Shown here piece by piece: positions 40,826-64,000 of a stretch of 64,000 nt of DNA (position 1 is its first letter; each line of letters opens with the position of its first letter). The stretch is from an uncultured Sphingomonas sp. (GTDB taxonomy: Bacteria > Pseudomonadota > Alphaproteobacteria > Sphingomonadales > Sphingomonadaceae). Both the position numbers and the translations under genes were made by a program. The stretch lies in assembly GCA_913776045.1 (NCBI GenBank), contig CAJYOI010000017.1:1-64000 (forward strand). The letters are read 5' to 3'. Under the pieces are notes generated by a model that saw only the letters and a program-made list of their open reading frames with translations, searched no databases and was not told where the DNA came from.

Positions 40826-40832
40826 CCGGGCG

Positions 40833-44346: not shown

Positions 44347-44350
44347 ATTA

Positions 44351-44364
44351 TGCAAACGCTTTCA
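44351..44364. promoter_or_regulatory. Probable second LacI-type operator
   Basis: TGCAAACGCTTTCA; on the minus strand TGAAAGCGTTTGCA matches the perfect palindrome at the lacI-P450 promoter in 12 of 14 positions. It sits 4 bases upstream of the MmgE/PrpD ATG and 42 bases from the divergent hydrolase start, so binding could repress both genes. Confidence 0.55.
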
Positions 44365-44405
44365 TTTCTACAGCCCGGAAAGCAAGCGGAAAGCGACTGG
44401 TGGCT

Positions 44406-45662: not shown

Positions 45663-45671
45663 AGACTGGCG

Positions 45672-46622: not shown

Positions 46623-46684
46623 GTTCGCTCTCCCAATTTGTTATAGGATAAAGCTACGCGATCGGCTCCGCTATGCAAGGCCTT

Positions 46685-47680: not shown

Positions 47681-47726
47681 TAATCGATGATAGGCCGAAG
47701 ATCGCCACTCTTGCAAAGATCATCGT

Positions 47727-47740
47727 TGAAAGCGCTTTCA
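47727..47740. promoter_or_regulatory. Perfect LacI-type operator
   Basis: TGAAAGCGCTTTCA is a perfect 14-bp palindrome with central CG, as in LacI/GalR-family operators. It lies between the divergent lacI (start 47680) and P450 (start 47762) genes, so it probably mediates autoregulation and control of the P450 operon. Confidence 0.75.
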
Positions 47741-47761
47741 TAAGTCGATAAACCGATTGTT

Positions 47762-48940
47762 ATGAGTCATGACTTCGATCCGCTCGTTCCGGAAACCTTC
47801 GATAGTCCGCACGACGATTATGCGCGGCTGCGGGCGACCTGCCCGGTCGCGCATAGCGACGCATGGGGCGGGATCTGGGCGCTGATGAAGCATGACGACG
47901 TGGCGAATGCGGCCGCCGATTGGCGAACCTTCATCACATCACAGCAGAACGTCATACCGAAGGTCGCGTTCACCGGCCGCCGCCCGCCGCTACACCTCGA
48001 CCCACCCGAGCATACGCCCTACCGCCGCGCCCTGGCCCCGCTGCTGAGCGAGCGCCGCGTCGAACGGCTGCGGCCGGTGATCCGCATGATCTGCCGCGAT
48101 CTGCTCGCCGACATGGCGGCGGCCGGCGGCGGCGACGTGGTCGCGGATTTCTCCGCGCACATGCCGATCGCGACCTTCGCGCACTGGATGAACCTGACCG
48201 CCGATCAGGTCCGCGAGCTGACCGCGGTCGGCAAGCGCTACAACATCGCCGTCCAGTCGAACGACATCGCGGCCACCAAGGAATCGAGCCTCTGGCTCTA
48301 CGATATGGCGCGCGCGATCGTCGCGGATCGCAAGGCGAACCCGATGTCGGTCGACGAGGATGCGACGAGCGCCCTGCTCGCGACCCGTGTCGACGGCGAG
48401 CCCCTCCCTGAGGACATGATCGTCGGCACGATCCGGCAGGTGCTGGTCGTCGGGATCATCGCGCCCAGTGTGATGATCGGCTCGATCGCGGTCCATCTGG
48501 GGCGCGATCGGGCGCTCCAGTCGCAGTTGCGCGGCGACCCGGAACTGGTGCCGGCGGCGGTGGACGAATTCCTTCGCCTCTACACACCGTACCGCGGCTT
48601 TGCGCGCACGGCGGCCGAGGACGTGACGATCCGCGGGCGCACCATCCCCGCCGGTGAACCGATCGCGCTGGTCTATGCCAGCGCCAACCGCGACGAGGAC
48701 GTGTTCACGGACGCCGACCGGTTCCGGATCGATCGGCCCAACATGAAGGATTCGGTCGCCTTCGGTCGCGGCCCGCACATGTGCGTGGGCGCAGCGCTCG
48801 CGCGGCTCGAACTGATCGTCGCGCTGGAGGAACTGCTGGCGGCCGCCCCCGGCTTCGCGCTGGCCGGCGAGCCCCAGCCGACCCGATTTCCGGAAATCGG
48901 CGCGCTGTCGGTTCCGATCCGCTTCGAGACTGCGGCATGA
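47762..48940 (+). CDS. Cytochrome P450 lacking the I-helix acid-alcohol pair
   Basis: Soluble bacterial P450 of 392 residues. The haem loop is AFGRGPHMCVGAALAR with ligand Cys341; the K-helix ExxR is EFLR. The I-helix reads VVGIIAPSVMIG at 229-240, where P450s normally have a (D/E)-T pair; here Ile233-Ala234-Pro235 replace it. That pair helps proton delivery for oxygen activation, so the enzyme may rely on its substrate or on peroxide, or do another reaction. No ferredoxin is next to it. It heads a co-directional run: CapA-like, permease, TonB receptor, tannase-like esterase. Confidence 0.92.
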   Translation: MSHDFDPLVPETFDSPHDDYARLRATCPVAHSDAWGGIWALMKHDDVANAAADWRTFITSQQNVIPKVAFTGRRPPLHLDPPEHTPYRRALAPLLSERRVERLRPVIRMICRDLLADMAAAGGGDVVADFSAHMPIATFAHWMNLTADQVRELTAVGKRYNIAVQSNDIAATKESSLWLYDMARAIVADRKANPMSVDEDATSALLATRVDGEPLPEDMIVGTIRQVLVVGIIAPSVMIGSIAVHLGRDRALQSQLRGDPELVPAAVDEFLRLYTPYRGFARTAAEDVTIRGRTIPAGEPIALVYASANRDEDVFTDADRFRIDRPNMKDSVAFGRGPHMCVGAALARLELIVALEELLAAAPGFALAGEPQPTRFPEIGALSVPIRFETAA

Positions 48941-50061
48941 CGCAGGTCCTTCTCGGAACCGGCGATCTGGCGATGGATCGTGACGATTACGCCGAAAGCT
49001 TCGTCGAGACACGCGACGTGCTGCGGGCGGCCGACATCGTCTTCGGCCAGCTGGAGACGAGCTTCGCGACGTCCGGCGTCCGCGCACCCCAGGCGCGCCA
49101 CGCGGTGCTCGCCCGGCCCGACGGGGCCGATGCGCTGGCGGGGGCGGGCTTCGACGTGATCTCGATGGCGGGCAACCATGTGCTCGACTGGGGCAACGAA
49201 GCCTTCTTCGAAACGCGGGCGAACATCACGCGGACGGGCATGCAGGTCGTTGGCGCCGGTGCGACGATCGCGGAGGCGCGTGCGCCCGTCAGCATCACGC
49301 TCGACGACGGCACCCACGTCGCGATCCTCGCCTATTCCTCGATCCTGCCGCAGGACTATTGGGCAACCGAGCGGCGTCCAGGCTGCGCCCCAATGCGTGC
49401 CTTCACGCATTACGAGCAGATCGAGCACGACCAGCCGGGCACACCCGCACGCATCCACAGCTGGCCGCATGGCGAGGATCTGGCGGCGATGGAGGCGGAT
49501 GTCCGGGCCGCCAAGTCGACCCACGACGTCGTCGTCGTATCGCACCATTGGGGCATCCATTTCGTCCGCGCGACGCTCGCCGACTATCAGCGCTGCGTCG
49601 CGCGCGCGACGATCGCGGCGGGGGCGGATGCGATCCTCGGCGGACACGCGCATATCCTTAAGGGCTGCGAGCTGATCGACGGCAGGCCCGTGTTCCATTC
49701 GCTCTGCAACTTTGCGACCGACCTGCGGATGGACGCGGCGCATGCGGCGTCGAGGAGCTTCAACGAAATCAGGGTCCTGGCGGAGCATTGGGAGCCGGAT
49801 TTCGACAGCCTGTACAATTTCCCGCCCGCATCGCGTCTGTCGATGGTCGCGCGGCTGGAGATCGCCGACGGTCGGATCTGCCGCGCAGGCTTCTTGCCGC
49901 TCTACATCGATCGCGACGCGGTGCCCCGCTTCTGCGCACCCGGCACCCAGCGCTACGGCGAGGTCGTCGACTATGTGGCCGCGGTCACGCGCGAGGCGGG
50001 GCTCGACACCCGCTATGTGATCACGGACGATATGGTCGAACTGGCGGGGGCGGCGGCGTGA
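48937..50061 (+). CDS. CapA-family metallophosphatase-like protein
   Basis: Protein of 374 residues with the PGA_cap/CapA fold. Motifs for a dinuclear metal site: GTGDLAM at the start, LETSF near residue 40, SMAGNHVLDWG near 73, SHHWGIHF near 200 and GGHAHI near 232. No signal peptide is seen, unlike true capsule CapA proteins. It overlaps the P450 stop (ATGA) and the next start. In this setting it may hydrolyse a phosphate or peptide bond of a catabolite; the function is not known. Confidence 0.85.
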   Translation: MTQVLLGTGDLAMDRDDYAESFVETRDVLRAADIVFGQLETSFATSGVRAPQARHAVLARPDGADALAGAGFDVISMAGNHVLDWGNEAFFETRANITRTGMQVVGAGATIAEARAPVSITLDDGTHVAILAYSSILPQDYWATERRPGCAPMRAFTHYEQIEHDQPGTPARIHSWPHGEDLAAMEADVRAAKSTHDVVVVSHHWGIHFVRATLADYQRCVARATIAAGADAILGGHAHILKGCELIDGRPVFHSLCNFATDLRMDAAHAASRSFNEIRVLAEHWEPDFDSLYNFPPASRLSMVARLEIADGRICRAGFLPLYIDRDAVPRFCAPGTQRYGEVVDYVAAVTREAGLDTRYVITDDMVELAGAAA

Positions 50062-51089
50062 TGCGCGCGCGCGACTTCCCGCTGGAGGGCTATGTCCTCC
50101 TGTATTTCCTCGCCTATCTGCCCAATGCGATCCTGCTGAAGCTGCTGTCGTCGACCCCGCATCCGGGGCTCGGCCGCCCGCTGACCGGGCTAGAGACGCT
50201 GCCGGCGTCGCTGATCATCAGCACCGTGCTCACCTACATCTTCATTTGGTGGTCGGGCTGGCACCGCGATGCGCATGGCGTGACGATCGCCGGCACGCGC
50301 GTGCCGATCCCGACGCGCTATACGTTACTGTCCGGTCTGGGCACCGCGCTAGTGCTGTTCACTGTGCCCTTGTCGTTCACCATCCCGAACGTCAGCATCC
50401 CGTTCATCCAGCTGCTGATGCGCGGCGATATTCTGATTATCGCCCCGCTGGTCGACCTCGCCTTCGGGCGGCGCGTGCGCTGGTGGAGCTGGACCGCGCT
50501 CGCGATGGTGGCAGGCGCGTTGATGCTGACGCTGGGCGATCGCGGCGGGTTGAAGCTGCCGCCGATAGCGATCCTGACGGTCGTGCTCTACACCGCGGGT
50601 TATTTCCTGCGCCTGGTCGTGATGACCAAGGTGTCGAAGAGCGGCGATCCCGCGTCGGTGCGGCGATATTTCGTCGAGGAAAAGGTGCTGGCGCTGCCGC
50701 TGTCGGTGCTGTTCCTGGCGATCGTCTCGGCAAGCGGCATCGGCGGCCAGTCGAGCGAACTCAGCTGGGGCTTCCTGTCGGTCTGGACCGATCCGGTGAT
50801 CTGGCCACTGTTCGTGATCGGCCTGACGCTGACGGTCGTCTCGGTCTTTGCGATCATCATTCTGCTCGACCCGCGCGAGAACGCCTATTGCGTGCCCCTC
50901 GAACGCGCGGCCAGCCTGGTCGCCGGCGTCGGCGCCGCGCTGATCCTCGCCTGGGGGTGGGGCCTCAAATATCCGCGCCCGGCCGAGCTGATCGGCGCCG
51001 GCATCCTGATCGCCGCGATCGTGCTGCTGTCGGTGGCGCCGCGGCTAGCAATCCGGCCGGCGCGGGCGGCGCGCGCCGAAGCCAACTGA
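50061..51089 (+). CDS. DMT/EamA-like membrane permease (hypothetical)
   Basis: Integral membrane protein of 342 residues with about ten hydrophobic segments, laid out like drug/metabolite transporters (IPFIQLLMRGDILIIAPLVD, TALAMVAGALMLTLGDRGG). The ATG at 50061 overlaps the CapA-like stop; a GTG one codon earlier is also possible. I cannot name a substrate. Between enzyme genes and a TonB receptor it is a candidate inner-membrane carrier for the pathway. Confidence 0.7.
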   Translation: MRARDFPLEGYVLLYFLAYLPNAILLKLLSSTPHPGLGRPLTGLETLPASLIISTVLTYIFIWWSGWHRDAHGVTIAGTRVPIPTRYTLLSGLGTALVLFTVPLSFTIPNVSIPFIQLLMRGDILIIAPLVDLAFGRRVRWWSWTALAMVAGALMLTLGDRGGLKLPPIAILTVVLYTAGYFLRLVVMTKVSKSGDPASVRRYFVEEKVLALPLSVLFLAIVSASGIGGQSSELSWGFLSVWTDPVIWPLFVIGLTLTVVSVFAIIILLDPRENAYCVPLERAASLVAGVGAALILAWGWGLKYPRPAELIGAGILIAAIVLLSVAPRLAIRPARAARAEAN

Positions 51090-51151
51090 ACACCAACTTA
51101 CCCTCAGGATCCGCGGACACAAGCGGGACGGGGCACGGAGAGGATTTGAGC

Positions 51152-53860
51152 ATGACCACGACGCCCACCCGACTGCTGCTGAGCTGCGCCACCGGCGTGC
51201 TCGCACTCGCCACGGCAACGGCGGGCAATGCGCAAACCGCGCAGCCCGTGGTCGACGCGCAACCGGCGGTGCCGGCGACCGCGCAGGACGTGCCGCAGGA
51301 GCAGGCCAGCGCTGAAGACATCATCATCACCGGCTCGCGGATCCGTGGCATCGCACCGGTCGGGTCCAGCGTCATTGCGATCGACCAGTCCAAGATCGCC
51401 GAGACGCCAGTCACCTCCACCAACGACCTGCTGCGCCGCGTGCCGCAAGTGGTGTCGCTGGGCGCCAACCGCGCGGGCGGATCGGCCCAGAACGGCGCGG
51501 CCAACGCGACGCGTGGCGCCGGCATCAACCTGCGCGGGCTTTCGACCAATGCGACTTTGCTGCTTTACGACGGTCGCCGGTTCCCGCCGCAGGGCACGCA
51601 GGGCCAGTTCACCGATCCGTCGGTGCTGCCCTCGATAGCGCTCAGCCGGGTCGAGGTCATCGCCGACGGCGCGTCCGCCATCTACGGCTCGGACGCGGTG
51701 GCAGGCGTCGTCAACCTGATCCTGCGCCGCGACTTCGATGGGGTCGAAGTGCGCGGACGCTATGGATTCACCGACGGCAATTACGACGAACGCCAGGCGT
51801 CCGCGATCGCGGGTAAGCGCTGGAAGGGCGGCTACGCCATGCTGGCGGGCGAATGGACCTATAATTCCGCGCTGCTCGGCACCGACCTCGATTTCTACCA
51901 GAACGACAACCGCCCGCGCGGCGGTCGCGACCTGCGTGTGCTGACCTGCAACCCGGGGACAATCACCGCGAACGGCGTGACCTATGCCATCCCCGCCGGC
52001 GGCTTGACCGCAGGCACCGCCGGCAGCCTCGTCGCCGGAACCGCCAACCGCTGCTTCTACGACAAGGATGTGGAGGTCATTCCGGACCAGCAGCGCTTCA
52101 GCGTGACGGGCGCGGTCAGCCAGCAGATCGGCGACCGCGTGCGTCTGTTCGCCGACGGATTCTGGTCGCGGCGCGAAGGCACGTTGCCGCTGATCGCGAA
52201 CATCAATACGTCGGTGCCCAGCACCAATCCCTTCTACGTCGCGCCGCCGGGCGTGACACCTGGCCTGTGCCCGGCCAGTGCCGGCGTGCCTGCAGGCACG
52301 CGCTGCGTCACCGTCGCCTATTCGCTGTATCCCGAATTCGGCCAGATCCAGCGGCGCTTCTGGAACGAGACATGGAATGCGGTGGGCGGGGTCGAGGTCG
52401 ACCTGTTCGGCGATTTTCGCGCCACCGCCTATTATTCGCACGGCGAAAGCGAGGAGGTCGACAACCGCCGGCAGAATGGTGCCAACGCGGCCGCGCTCGC
52501 CGCAGCGCTGCGCGACACCAATCCCGCGACGGCGCTGAACGTCTTCGGGGGCGCGAACAATCCGGCGACCTATGCGAGGCTGATCGACAATCTGTTCGTC
52601 ATCACCGGGCGAACGCAGCTCGACGTCTTCAACGCGCAGGCCGACGGTACGCTCTTCGCAATACCGGGCGGCAACGTCCGCCTGGCGGTCGGTGGCGAAC
52701 ACCGTGTCGAATATACCTTTACCGACCTGCAGACGGGCACGTCGGCCGCACCAATCGCGGTCGGAAGCGCTGGCGAGCGCAACGTCGATGCGGTCTTCGG
52801 CGAGCTGTTCGTACCGATCGTCGGTGCCGCCAACGCGTCGCCCGGACTGGAGCAACTCTCGCTCAGCGCAGCACTGCGCTACGAAAAGTACAGCGACTTC
52901 GGCAGCACGACCAATCCCAAGATCGGCATCACCTACAAACCGTTTCGCGGCCTGTCGCTGAAGGGCACGTACGGCACATCGTTTCGCGCGCCGACCTTTA
53001 CCGAAGTGTCGACCGTTGGCGGCGGCGCCGGGCTGTATTTCGACACACTGCCCGGGCCGACCGGCAACCAGATCGGCATCGGCATCGCCGGCGGCAACCC
53101 GAACCTGCAGCCCGAAAAGGCGAAGACCTGGTCGTTCACCGTCGAGGCGGCGCCGCCGCCGGTGCCCGGCCTGGTCGCCTCGGTCAGCTATTTTCGCATC
53201 GACTATACCGACCAGATCCAGGCGCTGCGCGGTACGCCCGGCCTGCTCACCAACCCGATCTATCGCCAGTTTGTCCAGTTCAACCCCAGCGCGGCGACGA
53301 TCGCCAGCCTGGTGGGCTCGGGCCTGCCGCTGAATGCGGTGATCGACCAGAGCCAGGTGACCTTCATCGCCGACGGGCGCCGCCAGAACCTCGGCACCTC
53401 GCTGCTGCGCGGGCTCGACTTCGCGCTCAACTACAATTGGTCGATGGGCGACGTGCGGATGGATGCGGGCATCCAGGGCAGCTACATTCTCGACTATCTG
53501 TTCGAAGCCGTGCCCGGCTCCGGCCTGATCAGCGTCGTCGACACTTTCGGCTTCACCCAGAAGTTCCGCAGCCAGGCCGATGTCGGCCTGCAATGGGGTG
53601 GACTGCGCAGCCGACTGACGTGGAATCATCTGGCTGGCTATTTCAACACCACCGTGACGCCGCGGCAGCGCATCTCGAACTACGATACCTTCGACCTGTC
53701 GGTCGGGTTCGAACTGACGCGCAACGTCACGCTCGGTGCCGACGTCCGCAACCTGTTCAACGAAGACCCGCCCTTCGTCGACACGAACTTCGGCTATGAT
53801 CCGCAGGCCGCCAACCCGATCCCGCGGGTCTTCGCGATCACGGCACAGGTAAAGTTCTGA
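51152..53860 (+). CDS. TonB-dependent outer-membrane receptor 1
   Basis: Receptor of 902 residues with a signal peptide ending in GNAQ, a TonB-box-like stretch, a plug domain (EDIIITGSRIRGIAPVGSSV; ADGASAIYGSDAVAGVVNLI) and a 22-strand barrel ending in VKF. The ATG at 51152 follows GGAGAGG. Loop Cys266-Cys301 matches receptor 2 in length and mostly in sequence (27 of 36). The stop overlaps the tannase-like gene. It probably imports the pathway substrate. Confidence 0.93.
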   Translation: MTTTPTRLLLSCATGVLALATATAGNAQTAQPVVDAQPAVPATAQDVPQEQASAEDIIITGSRIRGIAPVGSSVIAIDQSKIAETPVTSTNDLLRRVPQVVSLGANRAGGSAQNGAANATRGAGINLRGLSTNATLLLYDGRRFPPQGTQGQFTDPSVLPSIALSRVEVIADGASAIYGSDAVAGVVNLILRRDFDGVEVRGRYGFTDGNYDERQASAIAGKRWKGGYAMLAGEWTYNSALLGTDLDFYQNDNRPRGGRDLRVLTCNPGTITANGVTYAIPAGGLTAGTAGSLVAGTANRCFYDKDVEVIPDQQRFSVTGAVSQQIGDRVRLFADGFWSRREGTLPLIANINTSVPSTNPFYVAPPGVTPGLCPASAGVPAGTRCVTVAYSLYPEFGQIQRRFWNETWNAVGGVEVDLFGDFRATAYYSHGESEEVDNRRQNGANAAALAAALRDTNPATALNVFGGANNPATYARLIDNLFVITGRTQLDVFNAQADGTLFAIPGGNVRLAVGGEHRVEYTFTDLQTGTSAAPIAVGSAGERNVDAVFGELFVPIVGAANASPGLEQLSLSAALRYEKYSDFGSTTNPKIGITYKPFRGLSLKGTYGTSFRAPTFTEVSTVGGGAGLYFDTLPGPTGNQIGIGIAGGNPNLQPEKAKTWSFTVEAAPPPVPGLVASVSYFRIDYTDQIQALRGTPGLLTNPIYRQFVQFNPSAATIASLVGSGLPLNAVIDQSQVTFIADGRRQNLGTSLLRGLDFALNYNWSMGDVRMDAGIQGSYILDYLFEAVPGSGLISVVDTFGFTQKFRSQADVGLQWGGLRSRLTWNHLAGYFNTTVTPRQRISNYDTFDLSVGFELTRNVTLGADVRNLFNEDPPFVDTNFGYDPQAANPIPRVFAITAQVKF

Positions 53861-55356
53861 TGCTGCTGGCGGCGGTCGCTGCATGCGCGACTCTCGCCGG
53901 CGCCCAGTTGGGCGGTGCGACGATCGTGCGCGCGACGCCCGTCGCCGACGCCGCCGGCTGGATGCCGAAGGTCGACCAGCGCGCCTACGCCCCGCTGCCG
54001 GTGTCGCGGCCGCTGTGCCGAGTGGAGGCCGTGATCGACGGGCGCATCGGGTTCGAACTCTGGTTGCCGACGGCCTGGAACGGACGGCTGCTCGGCGCCG
54101 GGGTCGGGGGCGATGCCGGGATCTACAATTATATCGACATGAGCCGCCGCGTGGCCGAGGGCTTCGCCACGGTCACGACCGACACCGGGCACAAGGCGAC
54201 GCAGGCACGCTGGATGGCCGACCCGCGCGCCCGGGTCGACTATGAGCATCGCGCCGTCCACCTGACCGCGCAGGCCGCCAAGGCCATCGTCGCCCGCTTC
54301 TACGGCCGGCCGGCGAAGCGGAGCTATTTCACCGGCTGTTCGGGCGGCGGTCGCCAGGCGCTGAAGGAGATGCAGACCTATCCCGGCGATTATGACGGCG
54401 TGATCGCCGGGGCGCCCGGACCATATATGCCGCTCGTCTCGGTCCGGATGATGTGGAGTGCGCTGCTGCAGAAACGCGATCCCGCAGGCGCGCTCGGCGA
54501 TGCCGACTGGGCGCTGTACGAGCGCCGCGCCACGGCGGCCTGCGACCGGGCCGATGGCGTCGTCGACGGGATCGTCGAGAATCCGCTGGCCTGCCACTTC
54601 AAACCCGCGGATCTCGCCTGCAAGCCCGGACAGACGACGGACTGCCTCACCGCGCCCAAGCTTGCGATGCTCCAGCGGATCGTCGCTCCGATGCCCGACG
54701 AGCGGGGGCGGGCAATGGACCGCGGGCTGCTGCCCGGTGTCCGCACGCGACCGGGGCCGCCGTCGCCGCTGCTGCGCGCGATGTGGGCCGATGCGGTGTA
54801 CGACGATCCGCAGTGGAACGAGGACGGGTTCAGGCGAACCCCCGACCTTGCCGCGATCAACCGCGTCATGCCCGGGCTGCGCGCCGACAGCACCCGGATC
54901 GCGCCGTTCCTCGCGCGTGGTGGCAAGGCGATCATCTACCAGGGGTGGGCCGACCCCTCGGTCATCGCCCGACCGACGCTCGATTATTACGCCGACCTCG
55001 CACGCGCCAACGGCGGCGTGGAGCGGCTGGCGGCGGCGGTGCGCCTGTTCATGGTGCCCGGCATGTATCATTGCAGCGGCGGTCCCGGCGTCGACAGCTT
55101 CGGCGCGTCGGGTCAGCCGAGCTACCCCGGCGACCCGACACGCGACATGCTCTGGGCGCTCGTCCGCTGGGTCGAACAGGGACAGGCGCCCGATCGGATC
55201 GTCGGCGCCCGCAACCGAGACGGCCAGCCAGCCCTGACGCGGACACTGTGCGCCGCGCCGAAGTCGGCAGCCTATCGCGCCGGCGACCGGACGTCCGCTG
55301 CATCCTATGTCTGCCGTCCGGACCCGCTGCTCGGGCAAGCGCTCAAGTCCAAGTGA
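53860..55356 (+). CDS. Tannase/feruloyl-esterase-family hydrolase
   Basis: Secreted esterase of 498 residues with signal peptide MLLAAVAACATLAGAQ. The nucleophile is the Ser in FTGCSGGGRQAL near residue 166; the catalytic Asp lies in QGWADPSV near 368 and His in MYHCSGG near 406. The Cys residues flanking Ser and His (CSGGG, HCSGG) are the known neighbour disulfide of this family. It overlaps the receptor 1 stop. Members split ester bonds to aromatic acids such as gallate and ferulate, but other esters are possible. Confidence 0.9.
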   Translation: MLLAAVAACATLAGAQLGGATIVRATPVADAAGWMPKVDQRAYAPLPVSRPLCRVEAVIDGRIGFELWLPTAWNGRLLGAGVGGDAGIYNYIDMSRRVAEGFATVTTDTGHKATQARWMADPRARVDYEHRAVHLTAQAAKAIVARFYGRPAKRSYFTGCSGGGRQALKEMQTYPGDYDGVIAGAPGPYMPLVSVRMMWSALLQKRDPAGALGDADWALYERRATAACDRADGVVDGIVENPLACHFKPADLACKPGQTTDCLTAPKLAMLQRIVAPMPDERGRAMDRGLLPGVRTRPGPPSPLLRAMWADAVYDDPQWNEDGFRRTPDLAAINRVMPGLRADSTRIAPFLARGGKAIIYQGWADPSVIARPTLDYYADLARANGGVERLAAAVRLFMVPGMYHCSGGPGVDSFGASGQPSYPGDPTRDMLWALVRWVEQGQAPDRIVGARNRDGQPALTRTLCAAPKSAAYRAGDRTSAASYVCRPDPLLGQALKSK

Positions 55357-55416
55357 CGCGATGGCCCGGGGCGCCCGCGTTTCACAAGCGGCACGGTGGT
55401 TTCGCGGGCTCAATTC

Positions 55417-55465
55417 CGCTGATAAGCAGTATCATCTATATAAAAATAGTTGAAATACAGATGTA
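55417..55465 (+). promoter_or_regulatory. AT-rich promoter candidate
   Basis: A short AT-rich run (around TATATAAAAATAG) in very GC-rich DNA lies 55-95 bases upstream of the CocE-like start at 55518. It is the most likely promoter for the CocE-receptor 2 pair, but no exact -35/-10 is proposed. Confidence 0.35.
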
Positions 55466-55517
55466 AATGCCGCACTCTCTTTTCGAGATGACCGACAGGT
55501 CACCGGAAGGAGGATCC

Positions 55518-57227
55518 GTGAGGAGAGGAATCGCAGTCGCGATCGCGGGCGTCGTGGCAGCCGCCGGCGGCGCATCGGACGCGCAGTCGCCGGTGCCGGC
55601 CGCGCGCACGATCGAGCGTCACTCCCTCTACGTTTCGGTTCGCGACGGGACCCGCCTGGCGGTCAACGTCTATCGCCGGGCCGGCGACCCCGGCCCCGTC
55701 CCGACCATCTTCGCCTTCACTCCCTATCGCGCGCGCTACCTCAAGGACGGCGCCGTCGCGCAGACCTTCGATCAGGCCATCTTCGGATTTCCCGCGCTGG
55801 TCCAGCAGGGCTATGCCGTCGTCATTGCCGACGTGCGAGGCAAGGGCGCCTCGTTCGGAGCGCGCCGCGGCTTTCTCGACCGGACGGAGGCCAACGACGG
55901 CTACGACCTGGTCGGCTGGATCGCACGCCAGCCCTGGTCGAACGGCAAGGTCGGGCTGACCGGCTGTTCCTACCTCGGCGGCACGACCATGCTGATCGCG
56001 GGCACGCGGCCGCCCGCGGTTCGCGCAGTCTTCACCGCCGCCACCGACCTCGACAAATACAGCTTCGTCCGCAACGGCGGGGTGACCGCGCAATTCAACA
56101 CGCGCCCCGACGAGCCGCTGGAGGTAGACGCGGCAAGCGTTCCGGTCGATGCCGATCGCGACGGGTCGCTGCTGAAGCAGGCGGTCGCGCAGCACGCGCG
56201 CAACACGCCGATGGCCGCGCTGTGGGCCGGCATGCCCTATCGCGACAGCGTATCGCCGCTGACCGGCACGCGCTTCTGGGAAGAGGTCGGTCCCTACACC
56301 CATCTGAAGGCGCTGCGCGACCCGCGGATCGCCTGGTATTTCTGGAGCAATTGGGAGGACGAGCCGACCGAGCAGATGATCCTTGCGGCGCGCAATATCC
56401 CGGGCAAGCTGATCCTCGGGCCGGGCAGCCACTGCGAAGGTCCGGCCCAGTTCGACATCGCTGCCGAGCAGCGACGCTTCTTCGACCGGCATCTGAAGGG
56501 GATCGACAACGGCATCGACCGCGAGCCGCGCTACGCTTGGTGGCGGGAGGACGGCGCGGGCGGGGCGATGGTGCGCGCGAACCGGTTGCCGGGCGTCGGC
56601 ATCCGGCGTACCCCGCTGTTCCTCGCCGCCGACACCGGCGCGTCTTTGCAGGCACCGCGAGTGGCGGCGACGCGGCGCTTCCAGGTTCGCTACGACCTTG
56701 GAGCCGGTGAGTATTTTCCGTTCTGGCCGCGCCCGCTGACCGGCTTCGGGCCGAGCTGGACGACGCCGCCGCTCGCTGCCCCGGCACGGTTGCAGGGCTA
56801 TCCGATCGCGCGGATCCGCTTGGCGATCGATCGGCGCGACGCGATTCTGTTCGCCTATGTCGAGGACGTGGCACCCGACGGGAAGGTGCGGGTGATCGCG
56901 CACGGCCGGCTGGCCGCGTCGCACCGCATGATCTCGACACCGCCGTACGACAAGCTCGATCTGCCCTATCATTCGGGCCTGCGCGCCGATGTGGCGCCGA
57001 TGACGCCCGGCATGCCGGCGGAGCTCGCCTTCAGCCTGTCGCCGCGCGCTTACACCTTCGCCGCCGGGCACCGCATCCGCGTGACGCTGACCGGGGCCGA
57101 CCCGCGTCAGCGCGACCTGAAAGTGCTCGCGACCGATCCCGCGCCCGAATTCACGGTCCTGACCGGCGGCGCCGCCGGCTCCCGGATCGACCTGCCGTTC
57201 GAGGCGACACCGACATTCCAACGATAA
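55518..57227 (+). CDS. Exported CocE/NonD-family hydrolase
   Basis: Serine hydrolase of the X-Pro dipeptidyl peptidase S15 group, 569 residues. I chose the GTG at 55518 because GGAAGGAGG lies four bases before it and the signal peptide MRRGIAVAIAGVVAAAGG then begins at once; an ATG at 55467 would put extra residues in front. The nucleophile is in TGCSYLGGTT, the Asp probably in the region GLTSP-like after residue 280, and His in GPGSHCEGP. The C-terminal jelly-roll is present. CocE relatives cleave esters or acyl bonds of natural products. RBS of receptor 2 follows after 19 bases. Confidence 0.88.
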   Translation: MRRGIAVAIAGVVAAAGGASDAQSPVPAARTIERHSLYVSVRDGTRLAVNVYRRAGDPGPVPTIFAFTPYRARYLKDGAVAQTFDQAIFGFPALVQQGYAVVIADVRGKGASFGARRGFLDRTEANDGYDLVGWIARQPWSNGKVGLTGCSYLGGTTMLIAGTRPPAVRAVFTAATDLDKYSFVRNGGVTAQFNTRPDEPLEVDAASVPVDADRDGSLLKQAVAQHARNTPMAALWAGMPYRDSVSPLTGTRFWEEVGPYTHLKALRDPRIAWYFWSNWEDEPTEQMILAARNIPGKLILGPGSHCEGPAQFDIAAEQRRFFDRHLKGIDNGIDREPRYAWWREDGAGGAMVRANRLPGVGIRRTPLFLAADTGASLQAPRVAATRRFQVRYDLGAGEYFPFWPRPLTGFGPSWTTPPLAAPARLQGYPIARIRLAIDRRDAILFAYVEDVAPDGKVRVIAHGRLAASHRMISTPPYDKLDLPYHSGLRADVAPMTPGMPAELAFSLSPRAYTFAAGHRIRVTLTGADPRQRDLKVLATDPAPEFTVLTGGAAGSRIDLPFEATPTFQR

Positions 57228-57246
57228 GAACAGGGGAGGACGACCT

Positions 57247-59943
57247 ATGAAGAGCATCCGCACCGCCGCACTGGCCACGACCGGCTTGGTCCTGCTTGGC
57301 CTGTCCTCGCCGTCCTTCGCGCAGCAGACGACGCCGGCCAGTGAACCCGACGTGCAGGCGCCCGAGGCCGGTCCTTCGACGATCACGCAGGATCAGGTCG
57401 AACGCGACATCATCGTGACGGGCAGCCGCGTCCGGGGGGCGGCACCGGTCGGGTCGACCGTCATCGCGCTCGGCCGCGAAGACGTCATCGCTTCGGGTGC
57501 GGTGACGACGGACCGCCTCATCAAGCAGATCCCGCAGGTGTTCGACCTGGGCGTCAGCGAGAATTCGCGTGGCCAGTCGGGCGGCAACGGCAACATCACC
57601 TATGGCAACAGCGTCAACCTGCGCGGCATCGGCCCCTATGCGACGCTGATCCTGATCGACGGCCACCGCGCGGTGAACAACAGCCGCGCGCTCGACCCGT
57701 CAGTCATCCCGACGCTTGGCCTGGAACGGGTCGAGGTCGTCGCCGACGGCGCCTCCGCCATCTATGGCTCGGATGCGGTCGCAGGTGTCGTCAACCTTAT
57801 TCCTCGCCGCTCGCTGGACGGGGTCGAAGCCTCGGGCCGCTACGGCTTCGGCGACGACTTTCACGAATGGCAGGTGGGCGTCGCGGTCGGGCACAAGTGG
57901 AGCCAGGGCCAGATCATGCTGGCGTTCGAACATGTCCAGCGATCGAACCTCAGCGGCGACGACCGGTCGTTCTTCACCTCCGACCAGCGCGCGTCCGGCG
58001 GCAACGACTATCGTGTCAACCGCTGCGCGCCGGGCACCATCATCGCCGGTGGCACCACCTATGCCATTCCCACCGGCGGGCTGACCCAGGCGAATGCGGG
58101 CAGCCTGGTCGCCGGCACCGCCAATCTGTGCAACGACCTGATCGGGCAGGACCTGTTTCCGAAACAGGCGTACGATTCGGCGAACATGACGGTCACGCAG
58201 GAACTGGGTGACCGGGTGACGCTGTTCGCGGACGGCTTCTTCTCGCGCCGCACTTTCTTCCGCAACCCGGCCTCGCAGAGCGCGACGCTGACCGTGCCGC
58301 AGACTAACGCCTTCTTCGTGCGGCCGGCGGGCTTCACCGGCACGAGCTACACGATCGCCTATAATTTCATCAACGACCTGCCGCTCAACGGCAATCCGGG
58401 CAGCGCCGAGAACTGGCAGATTTCGCCGGGCGTGCGCGTCAAGCTGTTCGGCGATTGGGAGGCCGAGGGCATCTACAGCTACGGCCAGGGCGAGGATCAG
58501 TCCTATACCTATCGCGGCCTGACCACGGCCAATCTCAACGCCGCGCTCGCCAGCAGCAATCCGGCGACGGCATTCGATCCCTATGGTCTGGGCCGTACGA
58601 CGGAGGCGACGCGCCAGCTGATCAGCAACAGCATCTTCTTCGCTCCCACGCTCAACCATTTCACCGGCTACGAGGCGCGGCTGAACGGCACGCTGTTCGC
58701 GTTGCCCGGCGGCGACGTGAAGCTGGCCGCGGGATACGAGGGGCAGGAGATCCTGACCATCCTCGGCTCCGCGCGCGGCGTCGTGGGGACGCCGGTCGCT
58801 TATCGCTATTTCACGCGGCGGGTCGACTCGGGCTATGCTGAGGTTCTGCTGCCGATCTTCGGTGCCGAGAATGCGATCCCCGGCTTCCGCAAGCTCGTGC
58901 TGAATGCGGCCGTCCGCTATGACAAGTACAGCGACGTCGGCAAGACGACGAACCCGAAGTTCGGCGTCAATTGGACGCCGGTCGACGGACTGACGTTGCG
59001 CGGCAGCTACGGCACGTCGTTCCGCGCGCCGCTCATCTCGCAGATCTACGGGAATTCGAACAATCTGTTCGTCCAGACCTATCAGAACCCCGGCGGGTCG
59101 CCGATCGTCGGCGTCGCGCTGTCGGGGCAGAATCTGGGGCTGCGGCCGGAGGAGGCGACGACGTGGTCGGTGGGCGGCGACCTCGACATCGGCAGCCGGC
59201 TGCGCTTCAGCCTGACCTATTTCAACGTCGAATACACCAACCAGGTCGAGGCCTATCTGTCCGATCTCGCCATCCTGTCGCGAGAACAGTCGTTCGCCGG
59301 GCTCGGCATTATCACCCGCGGGGCGGAGGCCGCGACGCGCGTGCAGCAGCTGATCGCGTCGGGCATCGGCGTCGTCGGCGCGCTGCCGACCAATGTCACG
59401 CTGTTCGTCGACGGGCGCAACAACAACCTGGGCAAATCTCTTACGGAAGGGATCGACTTCGTCGCCAACTACACGCTGCCGACCGACAATTTCGGCCGGT
59501 TTCAGGTCAACCTGAGCGGCACCTTCCTGACCCGCTACGAAGTCGCGATCACCGAGAATGCGGCGCTGATCGATCGCCGCAACACGATCTTCTTCCCGCT
59601 GAAGTTCAAGGCGCGCGGGGCAATTGCCTGGGATCTCGATCCGGTGCGCCTGCAGGTCCAGGCGACGCATGTCGGCGGCTATACCAACAACGCCGTCACC
59701 GTGCCCCAGCAGGTGAAGAGCTATACGCCCGTGGACCTGAGCGTGGCCTGGGATCTGGGCGGCAGCGACAAGCGCGGTATCCTGGGCGGGCTGACGCTGG
59801 GGGCAGAGGTCCGCAATGTGTTCGACCTCCAGCCGCCGTTCGTCAATCTGGCGCCGTCGGGCAACGGCAGCGGCGGCTATGATGCGACCGCGGCCAATCC
59901 GATCGGCCGGCAGTTCGCCGTGTCGCTGCGGGCGAAGTTCTGA
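57247..59943 (+). CDS. TonB-dependent outer-membrane receptor 2
   Basis: Receptor of 898 residues with a signal peptide ending in SFAQ, plug (RDIIVTGSRVRGAAPVGSTV; ADGASAIYGSDAVAGVVNLI) and barrel ending in RAKF. GGGGAGG precedes the ATG. It is clearly a paralogue of receptor 1: the plug is similar throughout and loop Cys260-Cys295 has the same length of 36 with 27 identical residues. It forms a unit with the CocE-like gene, and it may take up the same compound or a breakdown product. Confidence 0.93.
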   Translation: MKSIRTAALATTGLVLLGLSSPSFAQQTTPASEPDVQAPEAGPSTITQDQVERDIIVTGSRVRGAAPVGSTVIALGREDVIASGAVTTDRLIKQIPQVFDLGVSENSRGQSGGNGNITYGNSVNLRGIGPYATLILIDGHRAVNNSRALDPSVIPTLGLERVEVVADGASAIYGSDAVAGVVNLIPRRSLDGVEASGRYGFGDDFHEWQVGVAVGHKWSQGQIMLAFEHVQRSNLSGDDRSFFTSDQRASGGNDYRVNRCAPGTIIAGGTTYAIPTGGLTQANAGSLVAGTANLCNDLIGQDLFPKQAYDSANMTVTQELGDRVTLFADGFFSRRTFFRNPASQSATLTVPQTNAFFVRPAGFTGTSYTIAYNFINDLPLNGNPGSAENWQISPGVRVKLFGDWEAEGIYSYGQGEDQSYTYRGLTTANLNAALASSNPATAFDPYGLGRTTEATRQLISNSIFFAPTLNHFTGYEARLNGTLFALPGGDVKLAAGYEGQEILTILGSARGVVGTPVAYRYFTRRVDSGYAEVLLPIFGAENAIPGFRKLVLNAAVRYDKYSDVGKTTNPKFGVNWTPVDGLTLRGSYGTSFRAPLISQIYGNSNNLFVQTYQNPGGSPIVGVALSGQNLGLRPEEATTWSVGGDLDIGSRLRFSLTYFNVEYTNQVEAYLSDLAILSREQSFAGLGIITRGAEAATRVQQLIASGIGVVGALPTNVTLFVDGRNNNLGKSLTEGIDFVANYTLPTDNFGRFQVNLSGTFLTRYEVAITENAALIDRRNTIFFPLKFKARGAIAWDLDPVRLQVQATHVGGYTNNAVTVPQQVKSYTPVDLSVAWDLGGSDKRGILGGLTLGAEVRNVFDLQPPFVNLAPSGNGSGGYDATAANPIGRQFAVSLRAKF

Positions 59944-60001: not shown

Positions 60002-62329
60002 TCAGCGTCGCGCGCGGTAGCGGGTGACGTCGTCGTCCAGGAAATTCTCGATCCGGCGATCGATCGCGGCGGCATCGCTGGCTTCGCGATTATAGTTGTC
60101 GAGGTCGAGCGCGAGCACTGGCACCCCGGCCCGGCGCAGCGCTCGCAGGACGAACGGGTCGGCATCCGACAGCGCGATCGCACCGTCGATCGCGTGGCTC
60201 TCCGCCTCGCGGACATGCCAGGCGCCCGCCCAGGTCGGCATGCGCAATTCGTCGCCCATGGTCACGAAGCGGGCGGCCAGCGCGCGCATCGGGTCCTGTC
60301 CCGGCGCGGCCCGGCGGATATAGCCGTCGGCGGCGAGCGCGAGGTACATCGACCAGACGAAGACCGCGCCGTGGCTCTCCTCCCAGCGCTGGTAGAAGCC
60401 CATGTCGCTCCACATGCCGCGACCGACCCACATCAGCCGCAGGCGCTCGTTCGGGCACGCCGCCTCACCGGCCGCGTGCCGCGCCGCCACCTCGTCGTGG
60501 AATGCCTTTGCCGCATCCCGTGCCCATACCGTCCCGCGGTGCCACTGCGGCACCATCGTTGCCGGCATGGTGTCGCTGATCGACACCGGCGCCGGGTGCG
60601 TGCGGGCGATCAGGTCGCGCGTGCGGCGGTAATAGTGCTCCTGCTCGTTGACCAGGTTCAGGATCTCCACGAACCGCGCCTGGTCGAAACGCCGGTCGCT
60701 GACCGCCTCGATCCGCTCGATCAGCGCGCGCAGCTCGGCGACCATCAGGTCGAGCCGTTCGGGCTCCAGCACCGTATCCCAGCGGTCTTGCAGGCTGTCC
60801 CACCAGTCGATGGGGAAGTCCGTGCGCGACTCGATGCTGCGTTCGAACAAGAACAGGTCGGCGCCCGTCTCTCGCGCCCAATGGTCAAAGATGCGCGGTG
60901 TCGCGTCGGTGCCGAGCACGGCCTGGACGAAGCTCGGCCGCGGCAGGCCGCCCCATGGCGCCTGGCCTGCATCGGTGTCGAACGCGGCGGCGATGCCTTG
61001 CGCGCTGTAGGCCTCGGTATCGCTCGGATAGCCATGCTCGGCCAGCAGCGCGAAGTAGCGGCCCGACTGCTGCTTGGCCGCGGCGATCGACGCCCACCAT
61101 TGGTTGACGACGAACGGCACGCCCATCGCGCGCAGTACCTCCTGCGGGGAGTTGGCGTTGACGACCGCAAGCGGTGCCCCGGCGTCGACCTCGGCGCGGA
61201 CCTGCTGGAACCATTCGCGCTGATAGGTGCCGAAACTGGCGAGCGAGGCGAGTGACTTGCGGCTGCGGCGGCCCGATGGCGGCGGGGCGGGGCGGGGCGC
61301 GGCGGGCGGCGCGACCGCCTGTGACGCCGTACCGACACGCTCGACCGCGAATCCCTGCGCGGCAAGCTCCCGCGCGAAATAGCCGGCGTCCCATGCCGCC
61401 GCCTCGTCACCCGCGGACTCGACGATGATGGCCTGCCGGACGCCGAGCGCGCGCATCCGCGCAGCAGCATCCGCCAGGCGATCGGGCGCACGCAGCAGCA
61501 TCCGCGGGCTCAGCCGCGTCGGGTCGGCGAGGGCATCGAGCGAGGCGGGGCTGTCGACCCAGCCGGCGACCAGCGGATCGCCCCAATCCTGGTCGTCGCC
61601 GATCGCGATCAGGCCGCGTGCGGTCAGGTCGCGCTGGCGCGCGGTCGAGTAGTGCGGTGATCCGATCACGAAGACTGGCGTTCCCACCGCTATGTCGCCC
61701 CGACGCACCGCATCGACCAGCGTGCCCCACGCCTTGGACTCCAGCGCATAGGCGGCACCGATGGCAGCGATCCGCGCAACGCCGGTCAGACCCTCCAGCA
61801 GGGCGGGGCGGACGCGCTCCATCGCCGCGTGATCGGCCAGCCCGTCGACATCGCGCCGTCCGCCGATGCGCTCCAGCCAAGCGTCCAGCTGATCGAGCCG
61901 CGCGCGGTTGTACGTCTGGCTCGACGCGCGCGGCAGATGCGCCAGATCGAGCATATGGATCGGCCTCGCCGCCACGTCCCCGTTGCGGATCAGATCGCGG
62001 ATCGTCGCGAACAGCTGCGGCAGGTCGCTGTCGGCATGGGTAAAGATCAGTGGATCGCCGCTCGTGTCCGCCGCGATCTGTTGCAGCAGCGACCGGCCGC
62101 GCTGGCTGAGCACGCCGCCGCCGACCAGCGCATCGGCCTGCGGCGTCGCGCCCGGCTGCGGCACCATCCGCACCGGCGTCAGCCCGCTCGCCCGGATCAG
62201 CGCATATGGTGCGTCCTGCCCGAGCACGCGGACCACGCACCGGCCCTCCGCACGCAGGGTCTGGGCGACGGCGCCGGGATCGTCGCATGCGGCGATGAGG
62301 CGGGCGAGGGCCGCGGCCGCATCCTCCAT
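60002..62329 (-). CDS. Fused two-half 2-hydroxyacyl-CoA-dehydratase-like protein without cluster cysteines
   Basis: Protein of 775 residues. Residues 1-335 and 370-775 each follow the HgdB/FldBC subunit pattern (for example GQDAPYALIRASGLTPVRM, TPVFVIGSPHYSTARQRDL, RLRLMWVGRGMW, GAVFVWSMYLA), joined by a Pro-rich linker at 336-358. Real enzymes bind a 4Fe-4S cluster through three Cys per subunit; here the equivalent sites are Gln38, HADSD 98-102 and SAGDE 305-309 in the first half, NQWWASI, LGTDAT and SDADP in the second. Only Cys15, Cys31 and Cys625 exist. The ATG overlaps the CoA-transferase stop. The fold call is moderately sure and the activity is unknown. Confidence 0.72.
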   Translation of the reverse strand: MEDAAAALARLIAACDDPGAVAQTLRAEGRCVVRVLGQDAPYALIRASGLTPVRMVPQPGATPQADALVGGGVLSQRGRSLLQQIAADTSGDPLIFTHADSDLPQLFATIRDLIRNGDVAARPIHMLDLAHLPRASSQTYNRARLDQLDAWLERIGGRRDVDGLADHAAMERVRPALLEGLTGVARIAAIGAAYALESKAWGTLVDAVRRGDIAVGTPVFVIGSPHYSTARQRDLTARGLIAIGDDQDWGDPLVAGWVDSPASLDALADPTRLSPRMLLRAPDRLADAAARMRALGVRQAIIVESAGDEAAAWDAGYFARELAAQGFAVERVGTASQAVAPPAAPRPAPPPSGRRSRKSLASLASFGTYQREWFQQVRAEVDAGAPLAVVNANSPQEVLRAMGVPFVVNQWWASIAAAKQQSGRYFALLAEHGYPSDTEAYSAQGIAAAFDTDAGQAPWGGLPRPSFVQAVLGTDATPRIFDHWARETGADLFLFERSIESRTDFPIDWWDSLQDRWDTVLEPERLDLMVAELRALIERIEAVSDRRFDQARFVEILNLVNEQEHYYRRTRDLIARTHPAPVSISDTMPATMVPQWHRGTVWARDAAKAFHDEVAARHAAGEAACPNERLRLMWVGRGMWSDMGFYQRWEESHGAVFVWSMYLALAADGYIRRAAPGQDPMRALAARFVTMGDELRMPTWAGAWHVREAESHAIDGAIALSDADPFVLRALRRAGVPVLALDLDNYNREASDAAAIDRRIENFLDDDVTRYRARR

Positions 62330-63576
62330 CAGATCACGCCCCGTGCGCGCAGGTCGTCGATCCGGTCTGGCGAATAGCCGAGCGTCCCGACCAGCACACG
62401 ATCGTTATGGTCGCCGATGCGGATCGGCAGCACATCGTCGAATCCGGTATCCGCATCGGAGAAGACGATCGGGACGCCCGCCGTCCGCAGGTCGATATCG
62501 GCTTCGTAGTACGGGTGCGCCACCGGAACCGCCTCGTGCCGCTCGATCACGCGGCGGTCGAGCAGGGCTTCGTCGGGATGCCGCACCGGCGCGACCGGAA
62601 CGCCCTCTGCCTCCAGCGCGGCGACCGCATCGGCGACCGACAGGCCGCACGACCATGCGGTGATGTTCGCCTCCAGCAGCGCGGCATTGGCAACCCGCGC
62701 GTCGCGGGTGGCGAAGCGCGGGTCCTCGGCGAAGTCGGGGCGCTTCATCGCGCGGAACAGACCCTGCGCCAGCTTCTCGTGCACGGCGACCAGCGCGATG
62801 AAGCCGTCGCGGCATTCGAAGACGCCGAACGGCGACAGGCGCTGCACCGTCAGTCCCGTCCGAGCCTGCATCCCCGCCGCCGCCATCGCCGACCAATTCT
62901 CGATCGCGACGAAGCTGGTCAGCGCGCCGAGCATCGACACGTCGATATGCTGGCCGACCCCGGTGCGGTGCCGCTGTTCCAGCGCCGACAGGATGCCGAT
63001 GACCGAGAACACGGGCGCCAGCATGTCGGCGATCGGGATGCCGATGCGCACCGGCGGCGCATCGGCCTCGCCGCTCGCATACATCGCGCCCGACAGGGCC
63101 TGGATGATGATGTCCATCGCCTTGCCGCCTTCGGGCGCGGTCGCGCCGAAGCCGGACAGCGAACAATAGATGATCCGCGGATTGGCGGCCTTCGCGGCCG
63201 CATAGCCAATGCCCAGGCGGTCGGCGGTGCCGGCGGTGAAATTCTCGACGACGATATCGGCGCTGCGCACCAGGTCCAGGAAGACCTCGGTCGCCCCGGG
63301 CGCCTTCAGGTTCAGCGACACACCCAGCTTGCCGCGCGCTCGCGTCAGGTGCGACACCGACAGGTCGTCGTCATGCACCTTTTCGACCGTGATCCCGTCG
63401 CGACCGACATAGGGGCTGTTGTCGCGCGCCAGGTCGCCGCCGCGCGGATCCTCGACCTTGATCACCTCGGCGCCCAGGCCCGCCAGCAGCAGCGTCGCAT
63501 AGGGACCGGCCAGCGCCCGCGTCAGGTCGATCACGCGCAGGCCCTCGAGCGGCCGTTGACGGTGCAATTCGGTCAC
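62329..63576 (-). CDS. CaiB/BaiF CoA-transferase
   Basis: Class III CoA-transferase of 415 residues. The N-terminus GLRVIDLTRALAGPYATLLL and VENFTAG are family signatures, and Asp155 in GKAMDIIIQA is the expected acyl-anhydride nucleophile. GTG at 63576 overlaps the stop of the next upstream CaiB gene; TGA overlaps the ATG of the dehydratase-like gene. It should move CoA between a CoA donor and a carboxylic acid. Paired with a dehydratase-like gene it recalls the FldA-FldBC layout of phenyllactate metabolism, by analogy only. Confidence 0.92.
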   Translation of the reverse strand: MTELHRQRPLEGLRVIDLTRALAGPYATLLLAGLGAEVIKVEDPRGGDLARDNSPYVGRDGITVEKVHDDDLSVSHLTRARGKLGVSLNLKAPGATEVFLDLVRSADIVVENFTAGTADRLGIGYAAAKAANPRIIYCSLSGFGATAPEGGKAMDIIIQALSGAMYASGEADAPPVRIGIPIADMLAPVFSVIGILSALEQRHRTGVGQHIDVSMLGALTSFVAIENWSAMAAAGMQARTGLTVQRLSPFGVFECRDGFIALVAVHEKLAQGLFRAMKRPDFAEDPRFATRDARVANAALLEANITAWSCGLSVADAVAALEAEGVPVAPVRHPDEALLDRRVIERHEAVPVAHPYYEADIDLRTAGVPIVFSDADTGFDDVLPIRIGDHNDRVLVGTLGYSPDRIDDLRARGVI

Positions 63577-64000
63577 GAGAGTCTTCCTTCGAGGGCGGTG
63601 ATCTGGGATTCGGAATAGCCGAGCGCGGCAAGAACGGTGCGGGTGTCGGCGCCGGGCGCGGAGGCGGCGTGGGCGGGGGCGGTGTCCCCCAGCCGCACGG
63701 GGCTGCCGATCTGGCGGGCGGTGCCTCCGCCGGGCAAGGCGACGTCGATCGCCATGCCGCGTGCGACGTTGTGCGGATCGTCGAGCGCCTCGGCGATCGT
63801 CAGGACCGGCGCATATTGCGTGCCGGCGCGCTCGAAGATGCCGAGCCATTCGTCGCGTGGCCGGGTCGCGATCCGCTCGGCGATGCGCGCCTTCATCTCG
63901 GCCCAACCGGCGCGGTCCATCTGGCGGTCGGCCAGCTCGGGCAGGCTGATCGCCTCGACAAACAGCCGCCAATAGCGCGGCTCCATGTCGGTGGTCACGA
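63573..64000 (-). CDS. Second CaiB/BaiF CoA-transferase, 5' end outside window
   Basis: The frame is open at the window end and gives the C-terminal 140 or so residues of a class III CoA-transferase of the racemase-like (AMACR) kind: TDMEPRYWRLFVEAISLP, then RPRDEWLGIFERAGTQYAPV and DDPHNVARGMAI. The catalytic Asp lies outside the window. Its stop overlaps the GTG of the other CaiB gene. The operon continues to the right. Confidence 0.85.
   Translation of the reverse strand, partial: VTTDMEPRYWRLFVEAISLPELADRQMDRAGWAEMKARIAERIATRPRDEWLGIFERAGTQYAPVLTIAEALDDPHNVARGMAIDVALPGGGTARQIGSPVRLGDTAPAHAASAPGADTRTVLAALGYSESQITALEGRLS

Follow-up and report, generated by a model that had tools for sequence, protein, structure and literature searches.

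The 2-hydroxyacyl-CoA dehydratases and the class I benzoyl-CoA reductases are the closest described systems to the protein analysed here. In the canonical dehydratases, as outlined in PMC8473912, an electron is supplied by an ATP-driven activator and the thioester is reduced to a ketyl radical; the same source describes 2-hydroxyglutaryl-CoA dehydratase as being inactivated at once by air. For the reductase BzdNO, the account in PMC11971306 assigns six cysteines of BzdN (Cys36, Cys73, Cys100, Cys263, Cys293 and Cys327) to an [8Fe-9S] cluster and three of BzdO (Cys95, Cys128 and Cys380) to a [4Fe-4S] cluster, with Glu65 and His131 of BzdO adjoining the cluster water and the thioester oxygen being bound by Tyr97, Tyr298 and Gln274. 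We compared these systems with HGDfus, a protein encoded in a 64,000-nucleotide stretch of DNA from an uncultured Sphingomonas sp. (the window), which had been predicted from its sequence to be a fusion of two dehydratase-like subunits without cluster cysteines. The features are listed in Table 1; numbers prefixed with L denote loci.

Results

HGDfus is a fusion of two subunits of the dehydratase/reductase fold

The HGDfus frame runs from an ATG start at 62329 to 60002 and encodes 775 residues (coordinates and length rechecked); it is a genuine ORF, with no chance explanation. The Pfam model HGD-D (PF06050) matches residues 393-765 with a score of 140.7 bits (cut-off 28.4; E=1.1e-40) and thus covers the C-half only, the N-half having no Pfam match from the single sequence, and the NCBIfam equivalogs all score below their cut-offs (HadB, 45.6 against 750 bits; BzdO, 42.2 against 448.6; double-cubane protein, 25.9 against 350). 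Since Pfam and NCBIfam detect only the C-half, a family profile was needed for the N-half. A GTDB contig scan yielded 27 loci with a relative, 22 of which encode more than 700 residues, and HGDfus and these 22 relatives were aligned across both halves (alignment A1, 23 sequences). Against solved structures, the N-half of the A1 profile matched BzdN (8s02_B; E=3.2e-22), HadC (3o3m_B; 1.4e-15) and MbdN (1.4e-12), and the C-half matched MbdO (2.8e-14), BzdO (2.5e-13) and HadB (7.1e-13). An AlphaFold2 model of HGDfus (mean pLDDT 88, pTM 0.90; linker predicted as disordered) gave 20 Foldseek matches in the PDB at E <= 0.001, all 20 of them to the same enzyme family, the next match having E=0.015. 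In this comparison the C-half matched HadB of (R)-2-hydroxyisocaproyl-CoA dehydratase with a TM score of 0.80-0.82, and the N-half matched BzdN (0.72) and HadBC (0.70; all scores target-normalised). Profile and structure searches of each half thus bear out the predicted two-subunit fusion and the dehydratase fold of both halves: HGDfus has the common fold of two homologous subunits as a single fused chain, with a BzdN/HadC-type subunit first and a BzdO/HadB-type subunit second.

Table 1. Positions of HGDfus, its parts and associated genes (window coordinates unless a locus number is given)
Feature	Position	Strand	Evidence
HGDfus, 775-aa fused HGD-D-like protein	60002..62329	minus	ORF, Pfam HGD-D, AlphaFold2, Foldseek
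HGDfus N-half, residues 1-334, BzdN/HadC-type subunit	61328..62329	minus	profile match 8s02_B, hhalign
HGDfus linker, residues 335-357, low confidence	61259..61327	minus	pLDDT <50
HGDfus C-half, residues 358-775, BzdO/HadB-type (substrate) subunit	60005..61258	minus	Pfam, profile, Foldseek, hhalign
Codon Gln410, replaces canonical active-site Glu (BzdO Glu65)	61100..61102	minus	alignment rows
Codon Glu439, replaces BzdO ligand Cys95	61013..61015	minus	alignment rows
Codon Tyr441, equivalent of BzdO Tyr97	61007..61009	minus	alignment rows
Codon Thr474, replaces BzdO ligand Cys128	60908..60910	minus	alignment rows
Codon Tyr662, equivalent of BzdO Tyr298	60344..60346	minus	alignment rows
CaiB1, type III CoA-transferase, 415 aa	62329..63576	minus	Pfam CoA_transf_3 E=4.7e-101
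CaiB2, C-terminal part	63573..64000	minus	Pfam
Catabolic neighbours	42970..59943	.	Pfam, NCBIfam CocE_NonD
Split C-subunits with CxxC and CxC	L043:11923-13224, L044:11944-13230, L061		alignment

Cluster cysteines and activator are absent

By hhalign profile-profile alignment, the six BzdN ligands fall on G37, S75, D100, D248, S274 and D308 of HGDfus, the counterpart of Cys100 being A99 in the A1 profile alignment. For BzdO, hhalign and a 47-row MAFFT alignment agree in placing Cys95 at E439 and Cys128 at T474. Position 439 holds Cys in 6/6 canonical rows and E (26) or D (3) in the 29 fusion rows that cover it, and position 474 holds Cys in 6/6 canonical rows and T (15) or S (15) in the 30 covering fusion rows. 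The stretch of the third BzdO ligand, Cys380, aligns with a gap, and the fusions read D-A-D there (31/31), without Cys. HGDfus has only three cysteines (15, 31 and 625), and the alignment rules them out as hidden ligands, none being at a ligand position; Cys625 is kept in 25 of 30 fusion rows, and the six canonical rows have V, L or F at the aligned position. Given the fold match of both halves as well, neither of the two conditions named as refuting the prediction holds. The predicted absence of cluster cysteines therefore holds for the six positions of the partner subunit and the three of the substrate subunit, and in the C-half it holds across the fusion homologues as well. The positions originally named were only partly right: the first N-half ligand position is G37 and not Gln38, the third is D100 or A99, and the last is D308 and not 307, while in the C-half E439 takes the place of a site near 414, the site near 475 is indeed T474, and Ala723 stands as a region only, in view of the gap.

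The activator model PF01869 has no match in the source genome of HGDfus, which is 99.86% complete. We also searched 24 genomes for the activase TIGR00241, which was present in all four genomes with cysteine-bearing HGD-D proteins and in none of the 20 with the HGDfus type (16 with a fusion and four with split genes only, the source genome included), two of these 20 being only 83-86% complete and nine having no stated completeness. An activator encoded elsewhere in the source genome was ruled out, as neither PF01869 nor TIGR00241 has a match there. The ligand alignment and both activator searches thus support the absence of both clusters and activator. HGDfus is a member of the fold and of the sequence family, but it lacks the cofactor ligands and the activator that define the radical enzymes, and the name 2-hydroxyacyl-CoA dehydratase is therefore inappropriate for it.

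The probable thioester pocket of the C-half

Residue counts were taken over the rows covering each position, and residue roles were read from the sequence alignment. At position 410, the site of the catalytic Glu65 of BzdO, all 29 fusion rows have Q and all five covering canonical rows have E; BzdO His131 corresponds to T477, the histidine not being kept, and BzdO Gln274 corresponds to position 637, which is R in 30/30 fusion rows. Both thioester-contacting tyrosines are present in HGDfus. Position 441 (BzdO Tyr97) is Y in all covering rows (29/29 fusion, 9/9 split, 6/6 canonical), and position 662 (BzdO Tyr298) is Y in 31/31 fusion, 10/10 split and 5/6 canonical rows. The pocket that grips the CoA ester is probably kept in HGDfus, which would suggest a CoA-ester substrate. 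Motifs invariant in the C-half of the fusions include NQWW, YSxQG, PQWHRG, GRG, SHGAV, MGDELRMP and DADP. Three histidines that are candidates for a catalytic role, His597, His653 and His712, are found in 6, 3 and 1 of the 10 split relatives, respectively.

Conservation and phylogeny of fused and split proteins

The two halves are conserved to very different degrees. The 23 A1 sequences have a mean pairwise identity of 0.357 across the N-half against 0.653 across the C-half, with the N-half lower in 253/253 pairs, and 8 positions are invariant in residues 1-334 against 121 in residues 358-775, densest around the former active site. As a control we used three canonical benzoyl-CoA-reductase-like loci, of which the close pair showed 65% identity in N and 83% in O, and the two distant pairs the opposite direction (35-36% in N, 30-31% in O). 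Because this control is mixed, part of the asymmetry of the fusions, large as it is, may be usual.

The C-half tree comprises 46 rows, namely, 30 fusion, 10 split and 6 canonical ones (three of them fragments), L026 having been dropped from the original 31 fusion rows as too short. Fusion and split rows form a clade apart from the canonical rows (support 100/99, branch 2.56), and the fusions are a single clade (support 100/100); the tree programme flags long-branch joins, chiefly among split and canonical rows. The fusion clade includes Sphingomonas, Alteromonas, Caulobacter, Niveispirillum, Povalibacter, Modestobacter and Klenkia, and intact fused frames at 42-76% identity occur in both Proteobacteria and Actinomycetota. 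PF06050 was found in 10 of 398 Pseudomonadota genomes, in eight of them above the cut-off; HGDfus has matches in 8 of 100 relatives, six with a full-length fusion, and in 5 of 289 genomes of its class, two with full-length fusions, the window's own included. As so few genomes have matches, the family is rare and patchy. The host of HGDfus is an apparent aerobe, going by its gene content and the identity of its relatives.

The split relatives (L043-L045, L047, L049-L051, L061 and L062), found in Novosphingobium, Croceicoccus, Rhizobium and Sphingomonas relatives, share this clade apart from the canonical enzymes, but unlike HGDfus they have separate N and C genes, and residues that never vary among the fusions are missing from the majority of them. 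The two genes, in most cases neighbours, occur on Novosphingobium and Croceicoccus plasmids, on a Rhizobium plasmid and in several Sphingomonadales and other alphaproteobacterial genomes; CaiB genes lie near them in L043, L044, L045, L047 and L049. L044 has, in the interval that separates its N and C genes, a gene for a 694-aa protein with two CoA-transferase-like halves (L044:9863-11947). Three of the 10 split C-subunits (L043, L044 and L061) have Cys439 and Cys474, which may have been retained or regained, and also Cys442 and Cys476, so that CxxC and CxC stand where the ligands used to be, without the third ligand; among the remaining ones, position 439 is P in four, A in one, R in one and a gap in one. 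The cysteine pairs could form a different kind of site, for a metal or a cluster, and in these three proteins the same change may have led to a second outcome, metal binding.

A conserved CoA-transferase operon

The TGA stop codon of CaiB1 shares one base with the ATG of HGDfus, the junction reading TGATG in the window. The NCBIfam models closest to CaiB1 are those of mesaconate and glutarate CoA-transferases, with succinyl-CoA:mesaconate CoA-transferase the nearest, and it scores far under their cut-offs. Beyond the window, the operon continues with CaiB3, CaiB4, DctP, DctM and DctQ (L046, contig C17:62000-80000). Among the 27 loci, L019, L022 and L026 break off at the fusion, leaving 24 with upstream DNA, and CaiB1 lies directly upstream of the fusion in 23 of these 24, L028 being the exception. 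The TRAP genes DctQ, DctM and DctP are present in 16/24 loci, and all four CaiB genes in 13/24, in the order CaiB4-CaiB3-CaiB2-CaiB1-fusion. CaiB1 and the fusion overlap in 18 of the 20 gene-called loci, by one base in 15 and by four bases in three (starts being heuristic). The actinobacterial loci L021, L023 and L024, which include Modestobacter and Klenkia, keep the CaiB1-fusion pair, with an ABC transporter replacing the TRAP system. At CaiB1 position 184, presumably the catalytic residue of these type III CoA-transferases, Asp is found in 21/21 CaiB1, 15/15 CaiB2 and 13/13 CaiB4, and in 0/14 CaiB3. CaiB3 (L046:2734-3711), which has Y, W or H instead in all 14, adjoins the Asp-bearing CaiB4, and the two perhaps form a heteromer with one non-catalytic subunit. 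The CaiB1 operon, on which the original prediction was silent, is the strongest functional clue for HGDfus.

On the other side of HGDfus, the catabolic neighbours encode MmgE/PrpD, an alpha/beta hydrolase, a PET-hydrolase-like protein (below the cut-off), a LacI regulator, a P450, a CapA-like protein, an unassigned protein, two TonB receptors, and tannase-family and CocE/NonD hydrolases. The whole catabolic island spans 42970-64000 of the window and continues to about 79800 of contig C17 (L046); it contains four CaiB genes, the TRAP transporter, MarR, GntR and LacI regulators, three TonB receptors, tannase-family and CocE/NonD hydrolases, two P450s and MmgE/PrpD. Much of the island recurs around fusion genes in other genera, where tannase-family, CocE/NonD and other hydrolases, P450s, MmgE/PrpD and TRAP or ABC transporters are found. 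VanA-type Rieske oxygenases occur near 6 of the 41 sequences searched by tblastn (L004, L023, L024, L027, L044 and L053), the one at L024:11375-12505 lying just downstream of the actinobacterial CaiB1-fusion pair. We rejected the idea of deriving the substrate from the neighbour genes, as the recurring neighbours converge on no single substrate; the gene set around HGDfus points to a carboxylate or ester catabolic pathway. A transposase (DUF772/DDE_Tnp_1) occupies the left end of the window (1-930), and short ORFs at about 40505-41549, just before the island, appear by eye to be a recombinase and a piece of an IS91-type transposase.

Discussion

HGDfus resembles HadBC (PDB 3o3m/3o3n/3o3o) in the fold of both halves and in having an adjacent gene for a type III CoA-transferase, but differs from it in lacking cluster cysteines and an activator gene in the genome, in its fused subunits and in the replacement of Glu by Gln. 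With the class I benzoyl-CoA and 3-methylbenzoyl-CoA reductases BzdNO (8s02) and MbdON (9g87) it shares the best profile match of its N-half, to BzdN, and the thioester tyrosines 97 and 298; unlike BzdNO, however, it keeps 0/9 cluster cysteines and is accompanied by no TIGR00241 protein. The double-cubane cluster protein DCCP (YjiM in E. coli) is a distant homologue (profile E about 2.5e-12; about 13-15% identity in the fold match), and unlike HGDfus it has clusters and an activase. Among the matches listed in the open-licence literature, we found no paper on a cysteine-free member or its activity, in line with the original remark that no activity is known to be described for a Cys-free fusion.

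Nothing is left in HGDfus for the ketyl-radical route, and what is left is a thioester pocket, a CoA-transferase partner and acid/base residues; we therefore propose a non-redox reaction. The strong conservation of the C-half favours an active non-redox enzyme, and it would be read most simply as marking the C-half as the seat of the active site. We thus give somewhat better than an even chance to HGDfus being an iron-sulfur-free, activator-independent, non-redox acyl-CoA enzyme descended from the dehydratase/class I benzoyl-CoA reductase fold. Against this reading count the gap at the third ligand, the mixed control for conservation, the incomplete occurrence of the three candidate histidines in the split relatives, and L028, which has no CaiB1. 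The pairing with CaiB1 and the loss of all redox cofactors could also be accommodated if HGDfus were a non-catalytic acyl-CoA-binding partner of the CaiB CoA-transferases, that is, a chaperone, carrier or allosteric subunit; CaiB3 of the same operon, without the Asp kept in CaiB1, CaiB2 and CaiB4, fits this as well, since its lack of Asp indicates that non-catalytic subunits occur in the operon. However, the 121 invariant residues of the C-half exceed those of a usual binding scaffold, and we consider such a role unlikely, if worth keeping in mind.

We regard as rather improbable that another metal or cofactor has taken over, such as a mononuclear metal held by carboxylate or His in the fusions, or a metal or Fe-S centre at the four-Cys site (C439, C442, C474 and C476) of the three Novosphingobium/Croceicoccus-type split proteins: an acidic residue is indeed fixed at 439 in the fusions, and the four cysteines do occur together in L043, L044 and L061, but the fusions have T or S at 474 and A at 723, and position 439 is P, A or R in six of the remaining split sequences, with one gap. 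It is very improbable that HGDfus has remained a radical enzyme, either a 2-hydroxyacyl-CoA dehydratase or a benzoyl-CoA reductase, that binds its clusters through unusual ligands and draws electrons from a different donor. Its fold, and a gene order of CoA-transferase followed by dehydratase, do resemble HadA-HadBC (we take the had order to have the CoA-transferase HadA beside HadBC), but cluster cysteines are absent from both halves, the canonical Glu is replaced by Gln, and TIGR00241 is absent from the source genome and 19 others. Ligand loss, taken alone, might even be read as decay, but intact fused frames over a wide range of identity, strong conservation and a conserved operon make a pseudogene or annotation artefact scarcely credible.

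For the non-redox enzyme that we favour, a working scheme can be suggested. A carboxylic acid would be taken up by the TRAP transporter and converted by CaiB1 to its CoA ester, which would be passed to the C-half of HGDfus. In this half the thioester would be held and polarised by Tyr441, Tyr662 and Arg637, and acid/base groups of the protein would replace the [4Fe-4S]-bound water, namely, Glu/Asp439 and possibly the invariant His597, His653, His712 and Asp586. The reaction would take place beside the thioester without redox, most likely, as a guess, as a hydration or dehydration or as a similar cleavage of a C-O or C-C bond, and the N-half, formerly the electron-relay subunit, would now be a structural partner or a remnant. 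In this scheme we infer the non-redox catalysis, the CoA-ester substrate and the roles of the named residues, and it would agree with the original suggestion of other chemistry or of CoA-ester binding without redox. Going further, we propose tentatively, and at somewhat less than an even chance, that these proteins form an oxygen-tolerant acyl-CoA family of aerobic bacteria in which the redox apparatus, i.e., the two cluster sites, the catalytic Glu and the ATP-driven activator, has been exchanged for acid-base residues within the unchanged thioester pocket, and which catalyses, translationally coupled to CaiB1, a CoA-ester reaction not yet described.

Annotations as "2-hydroxyacyl-CoA dehydratase family" in such organisms, as for L043 and L044, should accordingly not be taken to imply that activity. 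For extreme sensitivity to oxygen, the canonical family is a textbook example, and the cluster-free branch offers a way to ask how a radical enzyme becomes a non-radical one. HGDfus and its relatives appear to represent a branch of this oxygen-sensitive family in air-living bacteria, which probably carries out a different, oxygen-proof reaction.
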